Shown here: piece after piece, positions 8,723 to 35,908 of the stretch
Position numbering within the stretch: the first letter of the stretch is position 1
How the letters are laid out: each line of letters opens with the position of its first letter
DNA from: Tropicimonas isoalkanivorans
GTDB taxonomy: Bacteria; Pseudomonadota; Alphaproteobacteria; Rhodobacterales; Rhodobacteraceae
Direction of reading: 5' to 3'
Length of the DNA: 64,000 nucleotides
Assembly (NCBI RefSeq): GCF_900112335.1
Contig: NZ_FOLG01000003.1
Coordinates: forward strand, 62,001-126,000
The notes under the pieces: model-generated
What the model saw: the letters and a program-made list of their open reading frames with translations, nothing else
What the model was told of the DNA's origin: nothing
Databases searched by the model: none
Translations under genes and position numbers: made by a program

Positions 8723-10128
8723 CACATGACCTCCGTGTTGTAGAACTCGCCGAAAAGCTCCTCGTCGGACGGCCGGTCCATCGGGATCGGCCGCGCCACC
8801 CAGGTGATGTTCATGTAGTGCTTGAGCGAGACGTTCTCGTTGGTGATGTTGCCGCCCCAGATCCCGCAGCCGAGCGAGGACGTCATCGGCATGCCGTTCT
8901 CGAAGCTGCCGGCGTTGGCCTTGGATTGCGGCTGGCGCACCATGATGCGGGAAACCGGCGCGTTCTGGGCGTGACGGAGGATGCGCTCCTCGTCGAAGGA
9001 ATAGATGCCGCAGGAGTGGCCCTTGCCGCCGACGTCGAATATTTCGCGAACCATGCGCAACGCGTCGTCAAAATCCTTCGCACGGTAGAGCGCCATGACC
9101 ACGGACAGTTTCTCGGAGGAAAACTTGTGCTCCTTCCCGATGCCGTCCTGTTCGACCATAATGAACTTCCGGTCCTCCGGCAGATCGAACCCGGCGATCC
9201 CCGCGATCGTCTGCGCAGAGACGGCCACGGTGTTGATCGTCCGGCGCCCCTCGTCGTCCCACAGCGCCTTCTCCAACAGCGCCTTTTCCTCGGCGTTGCA
9301 AAGATAGCCACCCTCGGCGATCAGGGCGTCCTTCATCTGGTTGTAGACCTGATCGACGATGATGAGGTTGCCGTCGGCGGAGCAGCCGGAGCCGAAGTCC
9401 GACATCTTGGAGATGCGGGAGTTCATCGCCGCTTCGGCAATGTCGGCGGTCTCGTCGATCACCATGGTGGAGTTGCCCGCGCCCACGCCGTAGGCCGGTT
9501 TGCCCGACGAATAGGCCGCCTGCACCATCGGCTTGCCACCGGTGGCGAGCGTCAGGTCGCACTGGCTCATCAGGTAGTTCGTCATCGGAATCGAGGGCTT
9601 CTCGACGCACTGAAAGATATCCTCCGGCGCCCCAAGCTTCTTCAGCGTCTCGCGCATGACGCGAACCATCTCGAACGTCGTGGCCTTCGCCCGCGGGTGG
9701 GGCGAGAAGATGACCGCGTCCTTGCACTTGATGGCATAGATGCCGGTGACCGGGGGGGTCAGTTCCGGGTTCGTCGTGGGGATGAGGGAGGCAATCACGC
9801 CGGCGGGCTTGGCGATCTTGGTCAGGCCCTTCTCCGGGTCCTCCTCGATCACGCCAACGGATTTCTGGCGCAGGGCGTCGCGTAGGACACCGAGGATCTT
9901 GAACCGTTTGCCGGCCCGCCCCGCCCGGTCGCCAATGCCGCTCTCGTCCACACCCATCTGGGCGATGCGGACGAACGTCGTCTCGTTGCCGCAGTTCCAG
10001 CCGAGCGCCTGGGCCAGCCGGTCCACCTGCGCCTGGTCGTAGTCCTTGATCTGCTCCATCGCCTGCCGGGCGCGGGCAAGCATTGCGTCGACGGTGTCGA
10101 TCTCTTCCTGTGTAATATCACGGGCCAT
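8722..10128 (-). CDS. CoA-acylating aldehyde dehydrogenase (SauS/EutE-like)
   Basis: The protein has 468 residues, which fits the acylating aldehyde dehydrogenase family that makes acyl-CoA from aldehyde, CoA and NAD(P). The cofactor-binding region (IPTTNPELTPPVTGIYAIKC, about 117-135) and the catalytic Cys249 in SDFGSGCS are clear. The long N-terminal extension and WGGNITNENVS segment resemble sulfoacetaldehyde dehydrogenases of the SauS type, but the substrate cannot be fixed from sequence. The start at 10128 follows CAGGAGGAAACC; the longer open frame upstream has no such signal. It is translationally coupled to the ThDP gene downstream. Confidence 0.85.
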   Translation of the reverse strand: MARDITQEEIDTVDAMLARARQAMEQIKDYDQAQVDRLAQALGWNCGNETTFVRIAQMGVDESGIGDRAGRAGKRFKILGVLRDALRQKSVGVIEEDPEKGLTKIAKPAGVIASLIPTTNPELTPPVTGIYAIKCKDAVIFSPHPRAKATTFEMVRVMRETLKKLGAPEDIFQCVEKPSIPMTNYLMSQCDLTLATGGKPMVQAAYSSGKPAYGVGAGNSTMVIDETADIAEAAMNSRISKMSDFGSGCSADGNLIIVDQVYNQMKDALIAEGGYLCNAEEKALLEKALWDDEGRRTINTVAVSAQTIAGIAGFDLPEDRKFIMVEQDGIGKEHKFSSEKLSVVMALYRAKDFDDALRMVREIFDVGGKGHSCGIYSFDEERILRHAQNAPVSRIMVRQPQSKANAGSFENGMPMTSSLGCGIWGGNITNENVSLKHYMNITWVARPIPMDRPSDEELFGEFYNTEVM

Positions 10129-10159
10129 GTGGTTTCCTCCTGATTCTATGAGCCCGGCA

Positions 10160-10996
10160 TCAAGCCGGGTGCACCTTGCGCCGCTGGCCACCGTCAAAGA
10201 CGGCGCGGGCTGCTTCGATGCAGTTTCGAGCGTGTTGTTCGGGGCCGAACTCCGCCATCCGGGCGGCGTGCGGCAGTTCGATGGAGAGCGGCAGGTTCGG
10301 GAACATGTAGTTGACCGACGAGAAATCGATCGCCCCCTCACCGGGATAAAGCCGGGCATCGCGTGCGATACGGATCATCTCGTCCTTAGTGAAGGCGAGG
10401 TCCTCCGCGTCGCAGATGTGCAGGAAGTTGATCCACTCCGCAGGCACCCGCTCCAGCGCCATTAGCGGAGCCTTGTTGAAGTGCATGTAAAGCGTGTCCA
10501 CCAGCACGCCCTGGTTGCGCCGCCCGGTGCGTTCGAGGATGTCCAGCACTTCCTCCAACGTCGTAAGGCGCGAGAAGGCGGGGAATTCGAGGTTCACCGT
10601 CAGGCCGAATGGCTCCGCCAGATCACAGATCTCGGCGAATGTCTCGACGATGTAGTTGCGGTCATTCCGCACGTCCGTCCAGGCCGAGGAAATCACGTGC
10701 CGCGCGCCAAGTTCTGCTCCGGCCTCGAAAGCGGGCAGGAAATCGCGCGGCTGGATGCTCCGCAGGATGCGCATCAGTTCGATGTCGAAACACTTCACGC
10801 CAGTGTCGGCCAGCGCCTGCTTCGACTCGCGGATCACCTGCGGCGAGGTCGGATCGATGTCAGGCTCTCCGGCGACACCGAGATGGAACAGCCGGTAACT
10901 GACGTACTCGTAGCCGGCGCGGGCCGCGATGTAGGTCTGCTCCGGGGGCGTGACGCCCGGCACGGTCAGGTAGGCGAGGGAATATTTGTGACTCAT
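10160..10996 (-). CDS. Sugar phosphate isomerase/epimerase-like TIM barrel protein
   Basis: This is a 278-residue AP-endonuclease-2-type TIM barrel of the IolE/hydroxypyruvate-isomerase kind. The metal-site motifs are NLEFPAF, LVDTLYMHF, FLHICDA and SIELPH, in the usual order along the barrel, so the fold is probably catalytically competent. The start ATG overlaps the stop of the lyase gene (ATGA at 10993-10996) and has GGAGGAAACC before it, so it is translated in the same operon. It could epimerise, isomerise or dehydrate a polyhydroxy compound upstream of the ThDP, aldehyde dehydrogenase and lyase steps. The specific substrate is unknown. Confidence 0.8.
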   Translation of the reverse strand: MSHKYSLAYLTVPGVTPPEQTYIAARAGYEYVSYRLFHLGVAGEPDIDPTSPQVIRESKQALADTGVKCFDIELMRILRSIQPRDFLPAFEAGAELGARHVISSAWTDVRNDRNYIVETFAEICDLAEPFGLTVNLEFPAFSRLTTLEEVLDILERTGRRNQGVLVDTLYMHFNKAPLMALERVPAEWINFLHICDAEDLAFTKDEMIRIARDARLYPGEGAIDFSSVNYMFPNLPLSIELPHAARMAEFGPEQHARNCIEAARAVFDGGQRRKVHPA

Positions 10997-26710: not shown

Positions 26711-27478
26711 TCAGACCGCCCTCACCGCCTCCGCCACAGCGCGCAACGGGTGGCGAACGACGGGAAGAAACGCACGAACCTCTCCGCCGGGTCCGTAGCC
26801 CCACACCTCCGCCGCCTCCGCTTGTGACGACGTCATGACCGGATGATCGCGATACTCCCGGTTCCCATCCCGCAGGTCTTCGCCCGGCGGTGCCGCTGGC
26901 CGGTCGATGAAGGCCGCGATGCGCGAAAGCGTGCGGGCGGGGTCCGCCACGACATCTTCGTAGCGCACGACGAGAACCGAATGGAGGTAGGCGATGTCAT
27001 GCGCCACGATCTGGTGGGCCTCAAGCCAATGGTCGATCAACGCGCCTGATGGCGTGTCGACCCATTTCGAAACGGCGGCTGCGACAAGCTCGGGGTGCCG
27101 CATGACCACGATGAACTGGGAGAGCGGAAACAGCTGCTGGTAGAGGCGCATGCGCGTCAGGTTGACCGGGGATTTCTCCACCCGCCACGGGGCCGGCGGA
27201 AACCAGGGCGCCCAATCGGCCTCCATCCGCTCGCGCGTCTCCAGACGGTCCAACCGGCAGCCCTCAATCAGGTGCTGAGCGGGATCGGTGGCGAAATGCA
27301 TCGGGCGGCCGTCTTGCGCTGTGTGGGGTATGCCGCCTTGTAGGTAGACGCCCTCGTTTTCCGGAACCGGTGCGCCTTCAATTGAGGCCACGCCAGAAAT
27401 CCGCCCACACAGGCGCGCCACCAGCGACGTGCCGGATCGGTGCAATCCTCCAATGAAAAGATAACGATGGTCGATCAT
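26711..27478 (-). CDS. Sulfotransferase family protein
   Basis: The 255-residue protein opens with the 5'-phosphosulfate-binding loop GGLHRSGTSLV at about 9-19 and has a 3'-phosphate-binding strand FIVVMRHPELV (about 130-140) and a later VVRYEDVVADP, the usual order in PAPS-dependent sulfotransferases. The start at 27478 follows AAGGGG; an upstream ATG at 27604 lacks a ribosome-binding site and would add 42 residues of non-family sequence. It would sulfate a carbohydrate or other hydroxyl. It is divergent from the glycosyltransferase operon, so the glycan made there is a possible acceptor. Confidence 0.83.
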   Translation of the reverse strand: MIDHRYLFIGGLHRSGTSLVARLCGRISGVASIEGAPVPENEGVYLQGGIPHTAQDGRPMHFATDPAQHLIEGCRLDRLETRERMEADWAPWFPPAPWRVEKSPVNLTRMRLYQQLFPLSQFIVVMRHPELVAAAVSKWVDTPSGALIDHWLEAHQIVAHDIAYLHSVLVVRYEDVVADPARTLSRIAAFIDRPAAPPGEDLRDGNREYRDHPVMTSSQAEAAEVWGYGPGGEVRAFLPVVRHPLRAVAEAVRAV

Positions 27479-27588
27479 TCGCGCCCCTTGCGCTCTCCCA
27501 CGGCTCTCCAGCACCCAGCCCAGCGGGTGACCTAACGAGACTTTCTTCGGAACCTGAGGGCGGAGGGGGACGTTATCAACCAGATTTA

Positions 27589-27601
27589 GAGACATTGTCT
27601 C
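27589..27601. promoter_or_regulatory. Palindrome GAGACA-T-TGTCTC in the sulfotransferase/glycosyltransferase divergent gap
   Basis: Perfect 6-base arms surround one central base, 27 bases before the start of the glycosyltransferase operon. It is a candidate operator for one or both divergent units. No regulator gene is adjacent. Confidence 0.4.
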
Positions 27602-27628
27602 CATTCACATGACGAAAGGTGGGGTTGC

Positions 27629-29665
27629 ATGCACGTCGTGCACATTGCTCTCGGCGGCTGTCTCCGGTCGCCGCCGGTCAACTATGGCCTGACAGAAGAT
27701 ACCGGCGGCCACATCGCCTACGTGCTCGGCGCGGCTATGGCGCAAGCGCGGCGCCCGGACATCCGGCACGTGGACATCGTGACCCGGGCTTTCGACGCAC
27801 AGCATCTCGGCGCTTGCCACGCTTTGGTCGAAGAGCGCGTTGGCTCGAACTGCACGATCCGCCGGCTTCGAAGCGGGCGGTCGGAGTACCTTTGCAAAGA
27901 CGCGTTGGAGGCCGAAATCCCTGCGCTGACCGAAGCGTTTCTAAGAATGATTGGCTCGATGCCCCGGCGACCGGACATCCTGCATGCCCATTTCGCCGAT
28001 GCGGCGGTTCTGGCGGAGGCCGCATCGCGCGCTTTCGGAATACCGTGGGTCTATTCGAGTCATTCTCTGGCCCTCGACAAGGGCGGTCCTCGCGCCTTCG
28101 ACGAGACACTTTCGCCGCGCATCGCGCGCGAATACCGAGCCGTCCGAGCCGCGGGAGCGATCATAGCATCATCGCGCGACGAAGCTGAGCGCCAAATCAC
28201 GGCCTACGACGCTGACGCCGAGGGGCGGACGCACCGGATCAGCCCGGGTGTGTCGATCTACCCCCATGCCGACGAGTCAGCGGGGCGCGTTCTGCTTGCG
28301 CCCTACCTGCGGGATCCGTCCAAACCCATCATTCTGGCCATCGCGCGACCCATCGCGAAAAAGAACCTCGCCGCCCTGGTGAAGGCATTTGCCGACGCGC
28401 CTGACCTGCGGCAGCGCACCAATCTGGTGATCGTCGCGGGTCTGCGCGATGGGCTGCGGGGGGGAGACGCGGAGCGGGATAGTATCATAGCGGACCTGTT
28501 CGACGCGATCGACCGCAACGACCTGTGGGGATCTGTCGCCTTGCCCCGCCAACATGGGCCGGAGCATATCTCGTCGCTCTATGCCATCGCCGCACGGGAC
28601 GGTGTCTTCGTGAATGCGGCGCACCACGAACCCTTCGGCCTGACCCTGATCGAAGCCGCCCAGGCCGGTGTGCCCGTGGTCGCGACGCGCAACGGAGGGC
28701 CGGTCGATATCGTCCGCAGCCTGGGGTACGGCGAACTCGTCGACCCGGCGGCCCCCGAGGACATCGCCCGCGGCATCCGCAGCGTGCTCAACGACTCCCT
28801 GCGCGATGCCCGGACTGCCACCGCGCGACGCCGGGCATGCGAGATATATGACTGGGATAACTGGGCCGATCGGGTTCAGAACGTGTATTCCGGGCTCAAC
28901 GCACCATCGACATCTCGGCCTCCCGTGTTGGCGCGTGCACTTCTGGCCAGCGATATCGACGGCACTCTGACCGGCGACGAAGGCTCTGCCCGCCGGTTCA
29001 CAGCCTGGCACCGCGGCCGTTCACCCGGCCAAGTGTTCGCTGTTGCGACGGGGCGGTCCATTGTCGAAGCGCAGCGCGTTCTGGAAAACTGGTCTCTGCC
29101 CCAGCCGGACGTCTTCATCACGTCCGTCGGCACTGAGATCTGGCGTCGCACACAGGGCGGATCACTGCAGCTGTGCAAGGACTACGCCCGACGGATTGGC
29201 GCGGACTGGAACCCGCATGAGCTGCGCAAGATCCTTGCCACGCTCCAGCTCGATCCCCAGCCCCGCTACGATCAGCGCCGGTGGAAGCTCAGCTTTTTCG
29301 GCTCCTCATCGGATGCGGAGCGGATCGAAGCGGCGCTCGCCGCATCGGCAGCTCCGGCAAAAGTGGTCTTTTCCCATGGCCGGTTGATCGACGTGCTTCC
29401 GTCGCGGTCAGGAAAGGCTGCCGCGATCCGCTTCGAGGCGCGGCGTCTGCGGTTGACCGACACCGACTGTGTTGTCGCTGGCGACAGCGGAAACGACTTG
29501 GACATGCTGCAGGCCTTCGCCTGCGCCATCATTCCGGCAAATGCTAGTGAGGAGGTCGCTTCCGCCACACGCGCCTATCGCAGTCCCTTGCCCTATGCCG
29601 ACGGAGTGCTCGATGGACTGGTGCATTTCGGGCTGCGGTCCTCGCTTACCGTAGCCGCGGAGTAG
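27629..29665 (+). CDS. Sucrose-phosphate-synthase-like glycosyltransferase fused to HAD phosphatase
   Basis: The 678-residue protein has two domains. Residues 1-430 form a GT4 glycosyltransferase of the sucrose synthase/SPS type, with the EDTGGHIAYV N-terminal motif and the donor-site motif HHEPFGLTLIEAAQAG. Residues 433-678 form a HAD phosphatase of the sucrose-phosphatase type, with LASDIDGTLT and GDSGNDLDML. Together they could make and dephosphorylate sucrose-6-phosphate or an analogue such as mannosylfructose phosphate, giving a compatible solute or primer sugar. It heads an operon of four glycosyltransferase genes, so a role in glycan building is equally possible. Confidence 0.85.
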   Translation: MHVVHIALGGCLRSPPVNYGLTEDTGGHIAYVLGAAMAQARRPDIRHVDIVTRAFDAQHLGACHALVEERVGSNCTIRRLRSGRSEYLCKDALEAEIPALTEAFLRMIGSMPRRPDILHAHFADAAVLAEAASRAFGIPWVYSSHSLALDKGGPRAFDETLSPRIAREYRAVRAAGAIIASSRDEAERQITAYDADAEGRTHRISPGVSIYPHADESAGRVLLAPYLRDPSKPIILAIARPIAKKNLAALVKAFADAPDLRQRTNLVIVAGLRDGLRGGDAERDSIIADLFDAIDRNDLWGSVALPRQHGPEHISSLYAIAARDGVFVNAAHHEPFGLTLIEAAQAGVPVVATRNGGPVDIVRSLGYGELVDPAAPEDIARGIRSVLNDSLRDARTATARRRACEIYDWDNWADRVQNVYSGLNAPSTSRPPVLARALLASDIDGTLTGDEGSARRFTAWHRGRSPGQVFAVATGRSIVEAQRVLENWSLPQPDVFITSVGTEIWRRTQGGSLQLCKDYARRIGADWNPHELRKILATLQLDPQPRYDQRRWKLSFFGSSSDAERIEAALAASAAPAKVVFSHGRLIDVLPSRSGKAAAIRFEARRLRLTDTDCVVAGDSGNDLDMLQAFACAIIPANASEEVASATRAYRSPLPYADGVLDGLVHFGLRSSLTVAAE

Positions 29666-29669
29666 CCGA

Positions 29670-30833
29670 ATGAAGGACCTCCTCTTCCTGCCGGCCCCCC
29701 GCCCATTCGGCTACTTCGTGCACCATCAGGGCCGGGGCCATGCGGAGCGATGCGCGGCGATCGTCAATGCTTTGCCGGGGCATCGGCCCGTTCGCATCTT
29801 TTGCGCCCGCGACGACATTTTCCCGCGCCTCCGACCGGACGTGGAAATCTGCAAGATCCCGTCGCTCTTCGAGCCTCCGGAACCTGCCCCCGCCAAAATG
29901 GACTGGGTCCCCACACCACAGACCATGCATTGCGCACCGTTGGGCTGGTCCACCATCCGCGAGGCGATGGCGTGCATGGCGCAATGGTTCGCCGAAGCCG
30001 ATCCCGCCCTCCTTATCAGCGACGTCAGCGCCGAGGTGGCCCAGCTTGCCCGCCTTTGTTCGGTTCCGCATGTGAAAGTCATCCAGCACGGCGACCGCAG
30101 CGACCCCGGGCACCGGGCCGCCTACGACGGAGCAGCGGGACTGCTTGCACCATTCCACGCCGATCTCGCCCAGCCCGGTTGGGACCAGACGCTAACGGAA
30201 CGGATGTTCTTCGCACCCGGTCTGGGCATCGACACAACCATGCCGGACCGGGCGACGGCACGGCGGCGCCTCGGCATCGCCGACGGTACCAAGGTTGCGC
30301 TCGTCATCTCCGGCGCAGGCGGCAACGGCGTGTCCGAAGCCCCGCTCGGCGTCGCAGCGCGAACCTTCCCGGACACCCAATGGATCGGCATCGGTGCGGT
30401 TCAGCGCGACTGGCACGCCACGATGCCCGCGAACCTGCACTTGCGGGGATGGGTCGATACGGCGGCCGAACACATCGCCGCGGCGGACTTGGTGATCGCC
30501 TCGACCGGGAACACGACTTGCCACCAGATCCTCGCCGCAGGCCGCCCCTGGATCGCTGTGCCCGAGTGGCGCTACTTCGACGAACAAGTCGAAAAAGCCC
30601 GCGCGCTGGATCGTGCGGGGGCGGCGTTTCACCTGCCGGCGCTCCCTGCTTCGGCGCACCGCTGGCGGGAGGCTGTCGAACAGGCGCATGCGCGCCACGA
30701 CCCGGCGCGCCAGCGCGCCCTCGTCGCCCCGCGGGCAGCGGAAGACACTGCGGCCTGGTTGGAAGGCCTGTCCGGCCGCCTGTGGGGCGAGTCCCCCACC
30801 CATTCCTCTCCCGAATTAGCAACGCTTTCTTAA
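29670..30833 (+). CDS. GT-B glycosyltransferase (MurG/GT28-like)
   Basis: The 387-residue protein shows the HHQGRGHAERCAAI N-terminal motif of GT28-like enzymes and a C-terminal nucleotide-sugar domain with VISGAGGNGVSEA, RGWVDTAAEHIAAADLVIASTGNTT and a late acidic-aromatic PEWRYFDEQ. It lacks a signal peptide and membrane segments, so it is probably cytoplasmic. It starts four bases after the SPS-like gene and is followed after 12 bases by a GT-A enzyme. Donor and acceptor are unknown. Confidence 0.75.
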   Translation: MKDLLFLPAPRPFGYFVHHQGRGHAERCAAIVNALPGHRPVRIFCARDDIFPRLRPDVEICKIPSLFEPPEPAPAKMDWVPTPQTMHCAPLGWSTIREAMACMAQWFAEADPALLISDVSAEVAQLARLCSVPHVKVIQHGDRSDPGHRAAYDGAAGLLAPFHADLAQPGWDQTLTERMFFAPGLGIDTTMPDRATARRRLGIADGTKVALVISGAGGNGVSEAPLGVAARTFPDTQWIGIGAVQRDWHATMPANLHLRGWVDTAAEHIAAADLVIASTGNTTCHQILAAGRPWIAVPEWRYFDEQVEKARALDRAGAAFHLPALPASAHRWREAVEQAHARHDPARQRALVAPRAAEDTAAWLEGLSGRLWGESPTHSSPELATLS

Positions 30834-30845
30834 GAGGTGACTGCC

Positions 30846-31829
30846 ATGCAATCCGTTTCCGCACTGACAATTGCCGCTGGCCGCGCAGAGCATCTGCGCA
30901 ACGTGATCCGCGGTTTCCGCACCCAGACACAAGCGCCCGTGGAACTCATCGTCGCCGTTATGCAGGGTGCGCCTTACGACGACCTACCGGAGACCGATTT
31001 TCCAGTCCGCCAGATCCTCGTGCCCCCTGTGGAGGGAGAATTACCGCTGTCAGCCGCCCGTAATCGGGCGGCGGAGGCCGCCATGGGTGACGTTCTCGCC
31101 TTCGTCGACGTGGACTGCATCCCAAATCCGTCGCTGATCGCGGACTACGCGACCGCCGCCGAACCCGGTCGCGGTCTCATCATGGGCGAAGTGCTTTACC
31201 TACGGGAGGGCGCGACCTCTGGCGGGCTGGACTTCGACCTGTTCGACAAGATCGGCGTGCGCCATTCCGACCGGGCCGGCCCGCCGCAGGAAGGGCTCAG
31301 GCGCTGCGAAGACTACCGCTGTTTCTGGTCGCTGAATTTTGCCATGAATCGGGCGGATTGGGACCGCTCAGGCGGCTTCGACGAGGGGTACGTCGGCTAT
31401 GGTGGAGAGGACACCGATTTTGGCCGCGTCCTCGACGACAGAAACATTCCGATCTGGTGGATGAAAGGTGCGCGGGTCTACCACCAATACCACGCGCACT
31501 GCATGCCGCCGATCCACCAAGTCGCATCGGTCATCCGCAACGCGGAGTACTTCGCGAGCCGCTGGGGGCATCGCACGATGGAGCACTGGCTGCACGGTTT
31601 CCGCATGCTGGGCCTGATCGAGAACACCCGCACCGGCCTTCGGATCCTGCGCGAGCCAACGGAGGCCGACTTCGCCCTGTGCCGGCAGGAGCCCGATATG
31701 CCCTATGCCAACACCCGCCGGGTGCTGGACAAGCTGGAAGAAATCGACGCAGCCAGCCGCTCTGGCCGGGACCGCGAAGCGCAAGTCGCACTCGCCCAAG
31801 CCGATCTGATCGGGATCGCGGCGCAGTGA
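30846..31829 (+). CDS. GT-A family glycosyltransferase with galactosyltransferase-like C-terminal half
   Basis: This is a 327-residue GT-A enzyme. The N-terminal GT2-like domain ends in the metal-binding DVDC motif (about 88-91), and the central segment FDEGYVGYGGEDTDFGRVL is the signature of the Glyco_transf_7C acceptor/donor domain. AGAGGTG lies just before the ATG at 30846; an in-frame GTG three codons earlier is an alternative. The product acts on a nucleotide-sugar donor in the cytoplasm, and the stop overlaps a GTG codon at the next gene's start region. Confidence 0.8.
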   Translation: MQSVSALTIAAGRAEHLRNVIRGFRTQTQAPVELIVAVMQGAPYDDLPETDFPVRQILVPPVEGELPLSAARNRAAEAAMGDVLAFVDVDCIPNPSLIADYATAAEPGRGLIMGEVLYLREGATSGGLDFDLFDKIGVRHSDRAGPPQEGLRRCEDYRCFWSLNFAMNRADWDRSGGFDEGYVGYGGEDTDFGRVLDDRNIPIWWMKGARVYHQYHAHCMPPIHQVASVIRNAEYFASRWGHRTMEHWLHGFRMLGLIENTRTGLRILREPTEADFALCRQEPDMPYANTRRVLDKLEEIDAASRSGRDREAQVALAQADLIGIAAQ

Positions 31830-31831
31830 GC

Positions 31832-33115
31832 ATGGCGCCCCGGCTGCGTATCGCGGTCGTCTCCCATGTCCGCCACCCCATCGCGCCGCCGTTCATGGGC
31901 GGTATGGAGGCGCATTCCTGGCATCTGGCCAAGGCGCTGAAGGCACGCGGCCACGACGTGGCCCTGTTCGCCTCGGGCGACAGCGATGCGGGCGTCCGGG
32001 TTCATCCATTGATGGAAGAACACTACGACCGCGCCTTCCCCTGGCACGATTATCACGGGACGGACACGTTGAACCGGGTCCTCGACGACGCCTTCGCCAG
32101 GGCGCTGGACGCACTTGCCGAGGGCGGGTTCGACATTGTGCACAACAACTCTCTCCATCGTTACCCGCCACGGCTCGCGCGACGCGACCGGGTGCCGATG
32201 GTTACGTCGCTGCATGTACCGCCGTTCGATGCCTTGCGGCGGGCGGTGCACGCCTCCGCCGCGCCCTGGTGCCGGTTCACCGTGTGCTCCGACCGGCAGC
32301 GTCAGGTCTGGTGGCCCGATGGGGCTCCGGACGAGGCGCATGTAGTACCCAATGGTATCGACCTGGCGGACTGGCCGTTCTCTCCCACGGGCGACGGCAG
32401 CGCTGTCTGGGCGGGGCGGATCACGCCGACCAAGGGCGCACATGTGGCGGTCAAAGCAGCGCGCATCGCGGGCGTTCCACTGACGCTGTTCGGAACCATC
32501 GAACACCGCGACTATTTCGAGGATGAGGTACGGCCGCATCTTGGCGCAGACGTCCGCTATGGCGGGCATCTGTCCAGCCGGGACCTCGCTGCGGAGTTCG
32601 GACGCGCCTCCGCCCTGCTTTTCACGCCGCACTGGGATGAACCCTTCGGCCTGTCCGCAATCGAGGGGATGGCCTGCGGATTGCCTGTGGCGGCGACGGA
32701 CATGGGGGCGGTGCGCGAGGTGATCGGCGACTGCGGGCGGTACGCGCCACCAGACGACCCGAACCGCCTGGCGGATGCGCTGTTGGAGGCTCTCTCAATC
32801 CCACGCACGCAGCCGCGCCGCCGCGTGGAAAAGCAGTTCACCATCGACCGGATGGTCGGCGCCTACGAAGATTTATACGGTACCGCGATGGGCCTGCAGG
32901 CGGCCCCGGCCCTGCCGGTGGATTTTCCTGCAATCGAGTTGCCGCCAACACCGGAGCAGTCCATCGGAAATGGCGCTATCGGGCAAGAGCCGGAGATTCC
33001 GCCCTTGGATCCGCCGGTTGCCCGGCGCGTCACCCGGGTCCGTCCTATTGCCAACGTGTCTCAGGAGATCGGCCGTAGGGACGCCGTGGCCGACCTCCCG
33101 AAGGAAAGCGCCTGA
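31832..33115 (+). CDS. GT4-family glycosyltransferase
   Basis: The 427-residue GT-B enzyme has an N-terminal MGGMEAHSWHLAKAL motif, the donor-domain start VWAGRITPTKGAHVAV (about 193-208) and the retaining-GT4 motif HWDEPFGLSAIEGMACGLPV (about 268-287). A C-terminal extension of about 70 residues, rich in Pro and charged residues, is not part of the fold. The ATG at 31832 is preferred; a GTG at 31826 overlapping the previous stop is possible. It completes the four-gene glycan operon. Confidence 0.85.
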   Translation: MAPRLRIAVVSHVRHPIAPPFMGGMEAHSWHLAKALKARGHDVALFASGDSDAGVRVHPLMEEHYDRAFPWHDYHGTDTLNRVLDDAFARALDALAEGGFDIVHNNSLHRYPPRLARRDRVPMVTSLHVPPFDALRRAVHASAAPWCRFTVCSDRQRQVWWPDGAPDEAHVVPNGIDLADWPFSPTGDGSAVWAGRITPTKGAHVAVKAARIAGVPLTLFGTIEHRDYFEDEVRPHLGADVRYGGHLSSRDLAAEFGRASALLFTPHWDEPFGLSAIEGMACGLPVAATDMGAVREVIGDCGRYAPPDDPNRLADALLEALSIPRTQPRRRVEKQFTIDRMVGAYEDLYGTAMGLQAAPALPVDFPAIELPPTPEQSIGNGAIGQEPEIPPLDPPVARRVTRVRPIANVSQEIGRRDAVADLPKESA

Positions 33116-33139: not shown

Positions 33140-34114
33140 TTAATTCGAAGACCAGATGCGGCTCCAGTCCTCCGCCATGTCGACGATCAGCCAGCCCCGG
33201 TCCGGCCCTTCGTCGAGCCCCCGGTTGAGAACGCCGATGTGCCCCTCGCGGTCATAGGCGAATTCGCGCTCCGCGTCGGTGTGATGCAAGAGCAGCCCGA
33301 ATCTCGCGCCCTCGCCTGCTGTCGTCCATTCCAGCATCGCGAAGTCACCATCCGAGTTGCCGGCGGCGAAGATAGGCCGTTTGCCAATGTGGCGCATGAT
33401 GCCGACCGGTTTGCCCTCCTTGTCGTCGATGAAGGTGATACCGCCCTCCTTGGTCAGCGCCGGCACGCCGTCCGTCACCGCGTAGGTGGTCGTGCCCTCA
33501 CTGCCGACCACCTGCTGGGAGGGGATATTGTAAGCGTCGCCCGCGATCGCGCGGATAAAGTCCACGCCACCGCCCGAGACGATGTAGGTGGCGAACCCCT
33601 CGTCCCGAAGGTAGCTCAGCAGTTCCAGCATCGGCTGGTAGGTCATCCCGGCGTAGGTCAGGCCAGTCGTCGGATGGTCCTCGGTCGTCAACCATTCGTG
33701 GGCGCTGCTCTTGAACGCTTCAGGGGTAATATTGGCGTGGGAGACATTGATGACCTCCAGCAGCCCCTCATGGCCGCCGGCCATCACACCTTCAAGGTTG
33801 TTCTCGGCGGCGGCCTTGAGGACGTCGGACGTCAGGATGGACGGATCTTCCTCAGCCTTCTGCTGAAGGATATCAAGGGCATAGAGCATCTGGAAATAGA
33901 TGGGTTGCTCGGCCCAGAGGGTGCCGTCGTTGTCGAAAACCGCGATCCGTTCCGCAACCGGCACGAAGACTTCGGAGGTCGGGTCCGTCACTGAGTCCAC
34001 GAACTCGGTGATCCGCGCCTTGGCACCCGTATCGTTCCAGGATGGAAGCGGATCGGCGATGGCCGGAACAGCGGCACTCGCGGCGGCGAGAATAACGGCA
34101 AAAATCGGTTTCAT
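33140..34114 (-). CDS. Periplasmic HAD-superfamily hydrolase
   Basis: The 324-residue protein has a signal peptide ending AIAD and HAD motifs: motif I AVFDNDGTLW (about 58-67), motif II YIVSGGG and motif III/IV GNSDGDFAML. It would hydrolyse a phosphate ester outside the cytoplasm. It follows the arylsulfatase gene on the same strand after a gap containing two strong hairpins. Such HAD proteins recur beside arylsulfatases, and a shared role in phosphate or sulfate ester scavenging is plausible. The exact substrate is unknown. Confidence 0.82.
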   Translation of the reverse strand: MKPIFAVILAAASAAVPAIADPLPSWNDTGAKARITEFVDSVTDPTSEVFVPVAERIAVFDNDGTLWAEQPIYFQMLYALDILQQKAEEDPSILTSDVLKAAAENNLEGVMAGGHEGLLEVINVSHANITPEAFKSSAHEWLTTEDHPTTGLTYAGMTYQPMLELLSYLRDEGFATYIVSGGGVDFIRAIAGDAYNIPSQQVVGSEGTTTYAVTDGVPALTKEGGITFIDDKEGKPVGIMRHIGKRPIFAAGNSDGDFAMLEWTTAGEGARFGLLLHHTDAEREFAYDREGHIGVLNRGLDEGPDRGWLIVDMAEDWSRIWSSN

Positions 34115-34139
34115 GTAATCTGCTCCGTGAAATGCGCGT

Positions 34140-34197
34140 CCCGCCCATGTGGGGCGGGTGAAGGGTTGCCGCCCCGGCGCGATGGCGGGGGCGGCAA
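34140..34197 (-). terminator. Two GC-rich hairpins between arylsulfatase and HAD hydrolase genes
   Basis: CCCGCCC (34140-34146) pairs with GGGCGGG (34152-34158), and TTGCCGCCCC (34166-34175) pairs perfectly with GGGGCGGCAA (34188-34197) around 12 bases. No T-run follows on either strand. They could stabilise or partly terminate the arylsulfatase transcript before the HAD gene. Confidence 0.45.
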
Positions 34198-34231
34198 ACG
34201 TCGCAAGGGTCCGGCGCGTCTTCGTCGCGCC

Positions 34232-35908
34232 TTACTGGGTGCCTGCGGGTGCGCTCAGCTTCTCCATGACCTTGTCCAGGCTGAAGGAAGCCGCTTCCTG
34301 GCGCGGCGGGTATTCCTGGAAGGTCTCCAGGAACTGCGCCACGTAGGCCTGCGCTGGCACCAACATATACGCGTGGTCGAGCAGCCAATCGTAGTAGGTG
34401 TTCGACGTGCGGTAGGCCCGCTCGTAGGGATCACGACGAAGGTTGGTCATGATCGGCACGCGCAGTGGCGTCAGCGGCTCCATCCAGGCGCGGAAGGTGG
34501 CCCAGGCTTTCTGCTCCAGGAAGGTGATCTTCCAGTTCCCGAACCGGAGCGCGGCAAGGTCGCCGTCATCGGTGAAGTAGAAGATCTCCTGTCGCGGGCT
34601 CTCCTCAGACTCTCCGGTGAGGTACGGCAGGATGTTGTAGCCGTCGAGGTGAACCCGGTACTCCCGGCCCGCCATTTCGTCAACGGTGACGCCTTCCAGC
34701 AGGTCCTCCTTGATCGTCTCGTTCCCCGCCGCGGCAAGGAACGTCGGCAACCAGTCCATATGGTGGACGATTTCGTTGGAGATCTCGCCCTCGGAAATGT
34801 GGCCGGGCCAGCGGACCATGGCCGGCACGCGCCAGCCGCCTTCCCACTGGGTGTTCTTCTCGCCCCAGAACGGCGTCATCGCGGCATCCGGCCACGTATT
34901 CATGTGCGGGCCGTTGTCCGTGGAGTAGAAGACGATGGTATTATCGGCGATGCCAAGCTCATCGAGTTTATCGAGGAAATCTCCGATGTGCATGTCGTGC
35001 TCGATCATGCCGGCGGTGTATTCATCCGCGCGTTCGCCGTTGTAGTTCTCGTCGGCGATCTCCCGCATCTCGTCTTTCACATGGGTGCGGAAGTGCATTC
35101 GCGTGCCGGACCACCAGACGAACCACGGCGTGCCGGCTTCGGTCTGCTCCTCGATGAAGGCGAGGGCCGCCTGCGATGTCTCGTCATCGACGACCTTCTG
35201 ACGCTCGATATTGAGCGGGCCGGTGTCCTCGATGTCTTGCGTGATCTCGCCCTCGCCGTAGGTGGCGGTGGAGCGCAGCACGCCGCGCGGGCCGAACCGC
35301 TCGAGGAACGTCTCACCCGAGGGCAGCACCGCATCGCGCGGGTAGTCCTCGTTCTCCGGCTCCTCTTCGGCGTTCAGGTGATAGAGGTTTCCGAAAAAGA
35401 CGTCGAAGCCGTGGTTTGTCGGCAGATGCTCATCCCGGTCGCCAAGGTGGTTCTTGCCGAACTGGCCGGTGGCGTACCCTTCGGCCTTCAGCAGCCCGGC
35501 GATGGTCGGATCCTCCACCTGCATGCCTTCCTCCGCGCCCGGAAGGCCGACCTTGGATAGACCAGTCCGGAAGACCGATTGTCCCATGATGAAGGACGAC
35601 CGGCCGGCGGTGCAGGATTGCTCACCATAATAATCGGTGAAGATCATGCCTTCGTCGGCGATCCGGTCGATGTTCGGCGTCTGATATCCCATCAGACCCA
35701 TCGTGTAGGCCGAGATGTTGGACTGGCCGATATCGTCGCCCCAGATTACCAGGATGTTCGGCTTGTCAGCATCCGCGCTTTCCGTCGCCTCCGGCGCGCC
35801 GGTGGCCTCGGTCGCCTCCGGCGCGTCCTGCGCAACGGCGATTCCCGTCACGCAACCAAGCGCGAGTGCGCTCAGCCCGAAGCGGGCAAAGTCCCAGTTA
35901 TTCATCAT
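34232..35908 (-). CDS. Secreted arylsulfatase (Cys-type)
   Basis: The 558-residue protein begins with a signal peptide ending AVAQ and an Ala/Glu/Thr-rich linker. The sulfatase fold follows: metal-binding GDD at about 57-59, the formylglycine motif SCTAGRSSF with Cys99, and the late STDNGPH metal/catalytic segment. It would cleave sulfate esters in the periplasm after Cys99 is oxidised to formylglycine. No formylglycine-generating enzyme gene is in the window. GGGGAGG precedes the ATG-ATG start (35908 or 35905). The sulfotransferase 7 kb away acts in the opposite chemical direction. Confidence 0.92.
   Translation of the reverse strand: MMNNWDFARFGLSALALGCVTGIAVAQDAPEATEATGAPEATESADADKPNILVIWGDDIGQSNISAYTMGLMGYQTPNIDRIADEGMIFTDYYGEQSCTAGRSSFIMGQSVFRTGLSKVGLPGAEEGMQVEDPTIAGLLKAEGYATGQFGKNHLGDRDEHLPTNHGFDVFFGNLYHLNAEEEPENEDYPRDAVLPSGETFLERFGPRGVLRSTATYGEGEITQDIEDTGPLNIERQKVVDDETSQAALAFIEEQTEAGTPWFVWWSGTRMHFRTHVKDEMREIADENYNGERADEYTAGMIEHDMHIGDFLDKLDELGIADNTIVFYSTDNGPHMNTWPDAAMTPFWGEKNTQWEGGWRVPAMVRWPGHISEGEISNEIVHHMDWLPTFLAAAGNETIKEDLLEGVTVDEMAGREYRVHLDGYNILPYLTGESEESPRQEIFYFTDDGDLAALRFGNWKITFLEQKAWATFRAWMEPLTPLRVPIMTNLRRDPYERAYRTSNTYYDWLLDHAYMLVPAQAYVAQFLETFQEYPPRQEAASFSLDKVMEKLSAPAGTQ

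Follow-up and report, generated by a model that had tools for sequence, protein, structure and literature searches.

A conserved glycosyltransferase-sulfotransferase cassette in Tropicimonas isoalkanivorans as a candidate stress-response pathway for a small anionic oligosaccharide

In the stretch of Tropicimonas isoalkanivorans DNA analysed here (64,000 nucleotides; the window), four forward-strand genes for sugar-transferring enzymes stand divergent from a sulfotransferase (ST) gene. The first encodes a 678-residue fusion (27629-29665, +), in which a synthase domain of glycosyltransferase family 4 (GT4) resembling sucrose-phosphate synthase (SPS) is joined to an S6PP-type phosphatase domain of haloacid dehalogenase (HAD) subfamily IIB (residues 436-669; 28934-29635, +). 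Pfam assigned the two parts to Glycos_transf_1 (80.2 bits) and S6PP (PF05116; 177.6 bits, cut-off 20.3), and the phosphatase has the catalytic residues D442, D444, K596, D619 and D623. Behind the fusion lie the gene of a UGT/MurG-like GT-B glycosyltransferase, here called GT28-like (29670-30833, +; Glyco_tran_28_C, 30.7 bits, cut-off 22), a GT-A glycosyltransferase gene of family GT2 with a Glyco_transf_7C region (30837-31829, +; Glyco_tranf_2_2, 32.0 bits, cut-off 27.3; Glyco_transf_7C, 30.2 bits, cut-off 23) and a GT4 glycosyltransferase gene (31832-33115, +; Glycos_transf_1, 72.7 bits, cut-off 26.4), for which a GTG at 31826 is an alternative start. These four genes nearly abut (29665/29670, 30833/30837 and 31829/31832) and form one operon.

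The ST gene, on the reverse strand, belongs to the PAPS (3'-phosphoadenosine-5'-phosphosulfate) type (Sulfotransfer_3, 66.2 bits, cut-off 27). Its longest open reading frame (ORF) is 26711-27604, and the likelier extent is 26711-27478 (MIDHRYLFIGGLHRSGTS). A start at 27478 is more probable than one at 27604, since the RY[LV]F[IV]GG motif found there is also where relatives begin, and a divergent promoter region of 150 bases (27479-27628) therefore separates ST from the operon. Within it lies a motif of the type recognized by the stress sigma factor EcfG, GGAAC-N17-CGTT (27549-27574, +), with the start codon of the fusion 80 bases downstream. All five ORFs had been reported at these positions and in these families by a first-pass annotation of the window, with which our ORF check and Pfam searches agree.

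To follow the gene set beyond the window, named genomes were scanned, which yielded 193 relatives, and the best 80 loci were kept for counting; one of these (L054) stops at a contig end, and another (L061) is rearranged and divergent. Such gene sets turn up in numerous marine and soil bacteria; the loci span many Rhodobacterales (Paracoccus, Limimaricola, Jannaschia, Sulfitobacter and others), Sphingomonadales (Sphingomonas, Erythrobacter, Qipengyuania) and a few more. The GT28-like and GT2 genes were each found at 78 of the 80 loci, GT4 at 76 and ST at 61. Because the genes keep their order across 80 named loci from several families and orders, the linkage goes beyond chance, and the annotation's proposal of one pathway-like unit, with an SPS-related first enzyme, three further glycosyltransferases and a linked sulfotransferase, is borne out by this linkage together with Pfam. 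The other neighbours vary between loci, and a Crp/Fnr regulator alone is also widespread (28/80). This regulator often stands near ST, at times in two copies (for example L039 7312-8052 and L090 15266-16048), and it may control ST, for which an EcfG motif is generally lacking.

Within the family of the window's organism, the fusion was found in 11 of 198 genomes, its own included (E <= 1e-30). All five genes occur together in eight of these carriers (the window's genome and L018-L024). One of the remaining carriers has the fusion without the other cassette genes (L025), another has no GT4 within the stretch fetched (L026), and L027 encodes the glycosyltransferase part of the fusion without the phosphatase domain (9525-10805, -) in an otherwise similar operon that has no sulfotransferase. 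An independent search of the 198 genomes for the GT28-like gene returned 10 genomes, all of them fusion carriers (10/11). Likewise, close ST homologues (E < 1e-90) were found in 9/11 fusion carriers versus 0/187 genomes without the fusion, three of which gave weaker matches (1e-31 to 1e-49).

The first-pass annotation had also placed a sucrose-like core at the start of the product, and this part was not supported. The fusion falls below the cut-offs of both TIGR02472, the sucrose-phosphate synthase equivalog (301.7 bits, cut-off 576), and TIGR02471 (137.1 bits, cut-off 209.75). When TIGR02472 was run over 398 proteobacterial genomes, 21 scored above the cut-off (645-768 bits) and 13 had their best match below it (219-459 bits; the window's genome 303), with no genome in the gap from 459 to 645 bits. 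We then compared residues in 20 of the 21 true SPS (L138 was dropped), 79 of the 80 cassette proteins and nine other SPS-like proteins. According to the available part of a report, Ala48 and Gln51 of the SPS TeSPS bind fructose hydroxyls, and H158 and E331 have catalytic roles (PMC7264703). By our reading of motif spacing and alignment offset, Gln51 would be the glutamine of a Gly-Gly-Gln (GGQ) motif, which corresponds to position 28 of the fusion. This position is Gln in 20/20 true SPS and His in the window protein, in 79/79 cassette proteins and in 9/9 other SPS-like proteins (Gly-Gly-His, GGH). Position 122 is Tyr in 20/20 true SPS and Phe in 79/79 cassette proteins, and position 184 is Gln in 18/20 and Asp in 77/79, respectively. 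In a tree built from 27 of the 79 cassette proteins and the window protein with true SPS and other SPS-like proteins, the true SPS form one clade, and the cassette and other SPS-like proteins lie on the opposite side (support 100/100).

These results bear on the simplest alternative, namely that the product of the fusion is sucrose, serving as a compatible solute, which the other glycosyltransferases extend, as in the synthesis of glucosylsucrose by TeSPS and TeGSS. The catalytic His145 and Glu334 (H158 and E331 of TeSPS) are kept in 79/79 cassette proteins, and the fusion also keeps the catalytic Glu342 and the phosphate-side Lys90, Lys151 and Arg164, as a sucrose-forming enzyme would. Moreover, TeGSS, encoded beside TeSPS, makes glucosylsucroses whose levels increase with salt and heat, as given in the available text of PMC9909042. 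The profile scores, the two-group split, the fixed or nearly fixed exchanges (Q28H, Y122F and Q184D) and the tree nevertheless make plain sucrose synthesis unlikely. What the kept residues do suggest, together with the HAD residues D442, D444, K596, D619 and D623 (invariant in 79/79 cassette sequences), is that the fusion likely acts on a phosphorylated acceptor and then dephosphorylates the product; the S6PP profile score and the same residues identify the second domain as an S6PP-type HAD phosphatase.

The other SPS-like fusions adjoin homologues of GT2 (9/9) and of the GT28-like gene (8/9), two of the nine (L155 and L156) being cassette members, and the core is therefore older than the cassette. 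The more distant GGH-type fusions of other proteobacteria (L148-L154) stand with GT2, mostly with GT28, and with other GT4s; by eye, a PIG-L-like deacetylase, a methyltransferase and ferritin-like stress genes are also near them. Elsewhere in its genome, T. isoalkanivorans encodes a second, GGQ-type GT4 with a separate S6PP phosphatase (L028, 5325-7384, -; MshA/SPS-like by NCBIfam); the two perhaps form a separate pathway of the mannosylfructose or sucrose type.

The promoter motif is conserved with the cassette. GGAAC-N17-19-GTT was found within 130 bases upstream of the fusion at 41/80 loci, as compared to a mean of 0.77 and a maximum of 4 in shuffled sequences. The same pattern preceded GT28 at 0/78 loci, GT2 at 1/78 and GT4 at 5/60, and it occurred on the reverse strand at 3/80. 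When similar upstream regions were grouped, 36 of 71 groups had the motif. All 41 positive loci are among the 68 outside the Sphingomonadales set. In the window's genome, a single locus (L109) carries the genes for PhyR, NepR and an EcfG-type sigma factor, and the same motif precedes nepR-ecfG there. Thus the operon looks like part of the EcfG general stress response, a regulation that in T. isoalkanivorans is predicted from the DNA. Among cassette neighbours viewed by eye were catalases (L039, L043, L047, L052, L057 and L101), trehalose otsB-otsA (L075) and HWE histidine kinases (L018 and L085), all of them typical of the general stress response.

Expression data are available from Sphingomonas melonis Fr1, whose EcfG motif is given as GGAAC-N17-20-GTT in the accessible part of the report (PMC6599016). 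There, the overlapping genes #3506-#3509, three of them annotated as glycosyltransferases and one as an exopolysaccharide biosynthesis protein, are among the top 50 EcfG-dependent genes (log2 changes of -3.3, -3.4, -3.7 and -4.3 in the ecfG mutant), and a lacZ fusion to the promoter of #3505 is EcfG-dependent (PMC6599016). One of the four upstream sequences printed in that report was searched over 295 genomes of the genus Sphingomonas, and three genomes matched with one mismatch. In L115 all four sequences fall in order, at the ends of the fusion and of GT28 and within GT2 and GT4, with 1, 2, 1 and 0 mismatches. They also fall in order in L117 (2, 1, 1 and 3 mismatches), and in L116 three of the four match (2, 1 and 3 mismatches), the first, at 8 mismatches, being no match. 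Because the published sequences fall in order in the operon of these relatives, #3505-#3509 are almost certainly the fusion, GT28, GT2, GT4 and a pyruvyltransferase. In our literature search, which left most subscription journals outside, no work on this cassette besides PMC6599016 was found.

The pyruvyltransferase takes the place of ST. At L077, L085, L098 and L108, all named Sphingomonas or Microvirga, ST is absent, and a polysaccharide pyruvyltransferase (PF04230, 119.2 bits in L108, on which the profile was tested) directly follows GT4, with another GT2 behind it. Three further genomes of the genus have the same order with the pyruvyltransferase, and ST was not found in the three Sphingomonas genomes searched. 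Thus ST is present at 61/80 loci, the pyruvyltransferase at 4/80 and both together at 0/80. A habitat trend for ST, marine as against soil, is our impression from species names. The first-pass annotation had missed the stress promoter, the expression data from S. melonis and the replacement of ST by a pyruvyltransferase.

It is conceivable that these enzymes build a surface or lipid-linked glycan, such as an exopolysaccharide, capsule or glycolipid, during envelope remodelling under stress, which we consider rather improbable. Pyruvyltransferases often act on surface glycans, and GT28-like proteins include lipid-acceptor enzymes, for example MurG. The AlphaFold model of the GT28-like protein (predicted local distance difference test score, pLDDT, 89.9) is a GT-B fold of UGT/MurG type, with VIA-align Z scores of 26.8 to Bacillus subtilis YojK (3.9 A, 330 residues aligned) and 23.7 to MurG. 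In addition, the S. melonis gene carries an exopolysaccharide biosynthesis annotation in the available text (PMC6599016). The neighbourhood offers a tentative argument against a glycan destined for the envelope: among neighbour clusters in at least six loci, judged by eye, there was no flippase, polymerase or exporter, and no transporter family recurs at the 80 loci besides scattered, unrelated ATPases of the ATP-binding cassette (ABC) type. On inspection, antisense ORFs and unrelated ABC ATPases made up most of neighbour clusters 5 and 6. Furthermore, a free phosphorylated acceptor with a phosphatase is typical of soluble disaccharides.

Taken together, we favour, with a probability of about 55%, a biosynthetic operon that belongs to the general stress response and makes a small anionic oligosaccharide. 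Stress would free EcfG to start transcription at the promoter that lies about 80 bases ahead of the fusion, a step for which the promoter is seen in the window and expression is known from Sphingomonas. As the conserved residues and the Gln-to-His exchange suggest, the SPS-like domain would use a sugar nucleotide to place a hexose on a phosphorylated acceptor, and the fused HAD domain would remove the phosphate, making the step irreversible and releasing a free disaccharide, probably non-reducing and probably something other than plain sucrose. The GT28-like, GT2 and GT4 enzymes could then extend this disaccharide in the cytosol by as many as three sugars. ST, a member of the PAPS-dependent family, would add sulfate from PAPS to the presumed oligosaccharide; in Sphingomonas, the pyruvyltransferase, with the further GT2, would add a pyruvate ketal instead. 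Because no recurrent gene for an exporter, a flippase or a polymerase was seen by eye among the neighbours, we infer that the product accumulates in soluble form. Our best reading of it is a cytosolic, non-reducing anionic oligosaccharide that would serve as a stress protectant or compatible solute. The small, perhaps sulfated oligosaccharide of the first-pass annotation is thus retained, on the SPS-related start, the three glycosyltransferases and the linked ST, though probably without plain sucrose as its core.

Several observations weigh against such an operon. The strict EcfG pattern was found at 0/12 loci of the Sphingomonadales set, and it is not selective over the whole genome, where it matches 97 times and its reversed control 85 times; the window has 4 matches versus 1.11 expected, so the promoter argument rests on conservation. 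A looser pattern, GGANN-N16/17-CGTT, which was picked after viewing the sequences, occurs at -51 to -56 in 7/7 pyruvyltransferase-type Sphingomonas/Microvirga loci (shuffles: mean 0.12, maximum 2) and suggests a direct but degenerate EcfG promoter there. In the accessible text, the S. melonis authors list #3505 as a putative indirect target (PMC6599016). At 15 of the 80 loci, both ST and the pyruvyltransferase are missing, and a charged cap is therefore either not universal or located elsewhere. Only 3 of the 57 usable ST loci, out of 61, have an EcfG motif of ST's own, so that EcfG control of ST, and with it co-regulation, is unsupported. Finally, the nearest folds to ST are protein-tyrosine rather than sugar sulfotransferases.

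The last two points favour a different account of ST, as a separate gene with another substrate that is kept nearby by shared ancestry or regulation; ST is divergent, and at times it lies at the other end of the cassette. By profile, fold and a GLHRSGTS-type motif, which we take to be the PAPS-binding motif, ST is a PAPS sulfotransferase, and its GLHR.GTS, EKSPVN and RYE motifs are invariant in an alignment of 27 rows (the structure alignments A2 and A3 hold 26 and 24 locus proteins, respectively, each with the window protein). For its AlphaFold model (pLDDT 90.2), the closest VIA-align matches were tyrosylprotein sulfotransferases (Z 17.2, root-mean-square deviation 3.1-3.3, 210-212 residues aligned), followed by heparan sulfate sulfotransferases (Z about 12 to 13) and trehalose Stf0 (10.2); this comparison was a second look, and families absent from its list could also match. 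The acceptor cannot be read from the fold, and a carbohydrate is the presumed one. A separate role is distinctly unlikely given that close homologues are restricted to fusion genomes and that ST stays at the locus despite changes of position and strand. PAPS could be supplied by way of the adenosine 5'-phosphosulfate kinase encoded in the window's genome. Sulfotransferases that go with halotolerance are listed in the available part of PMC10040529, where they are not shown to be this ST. Downstream of the operon, the window encodes a HAD protein and a sulfatase (33140-35908, -; Pfam), both with N-termini that look signal-like by eye; as members of the unit they were rejected, since no homologue of either turned up at the 80 loci.

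In alphaproteobacteria, the general stress response confers broad stress resistance, yet for many of the genes in its regulon no function has been assigned. Production of a small anionic oligosaccharide would give one strongly EcfG-dependent operon a testable product, with a natural experiment in the sulfate and pyruvate caps. It would also correct the view that such proteins are sucrose-phosphate synthases and provide a bacterial way of making small sulfated sugars. More tentatively, and with doubt prevailing, the cassette may represent an undescribed class of anionic, non-reducing oligosaccharide stress protectants, which start from a GGH-type synthase/phosphatase fusion, are spread through proteobacteria as a product of the general stress response and have a charged cap that differs between lineages: sulfate in Rhodobacterales and erythrobacters, most of them marine, and a pyruvate ketal in Sphingomonas.

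Four known systems resemble the cassette. The fusions of SPS with sucrose-phosphate phosphatase (TIGR02472 plus TIGR02471) share its two-domain plan and its catalytic and phosphate-side residues, whereas the protein described here is below both cut-offs, outside the true SPS clade and changed from Gln to His at the fructose contact (79/79). In the cyanobacterial glucosylsucrose pathway (TeSPS, tll1590; TeGSS, tll1591), a stress-induced primer disaccharide is likewise extended by a neighbouring glycosyltransferase, as described in the available text of PMC9909042; here there appear instead to be three other glycosyltransferases, along with a charged decoration and EcfG control of the alphaproteobacterial kind. 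Sulfotrehalose of haloalkaliphilic archaea, according to the accessible part of PMC1224877, is also a sulfated non-reducing sugar used as a compatible solute; its core is trehalose, and the likeness is to the proposed product. The fourth is #3505-#3509 of S. melonis Fr1, which by the upstream sequences mapped in order in close relatives is almost certainly the orthologous operon, with a pyruvyltransferase where ST stands in T. isoalkanivorans.

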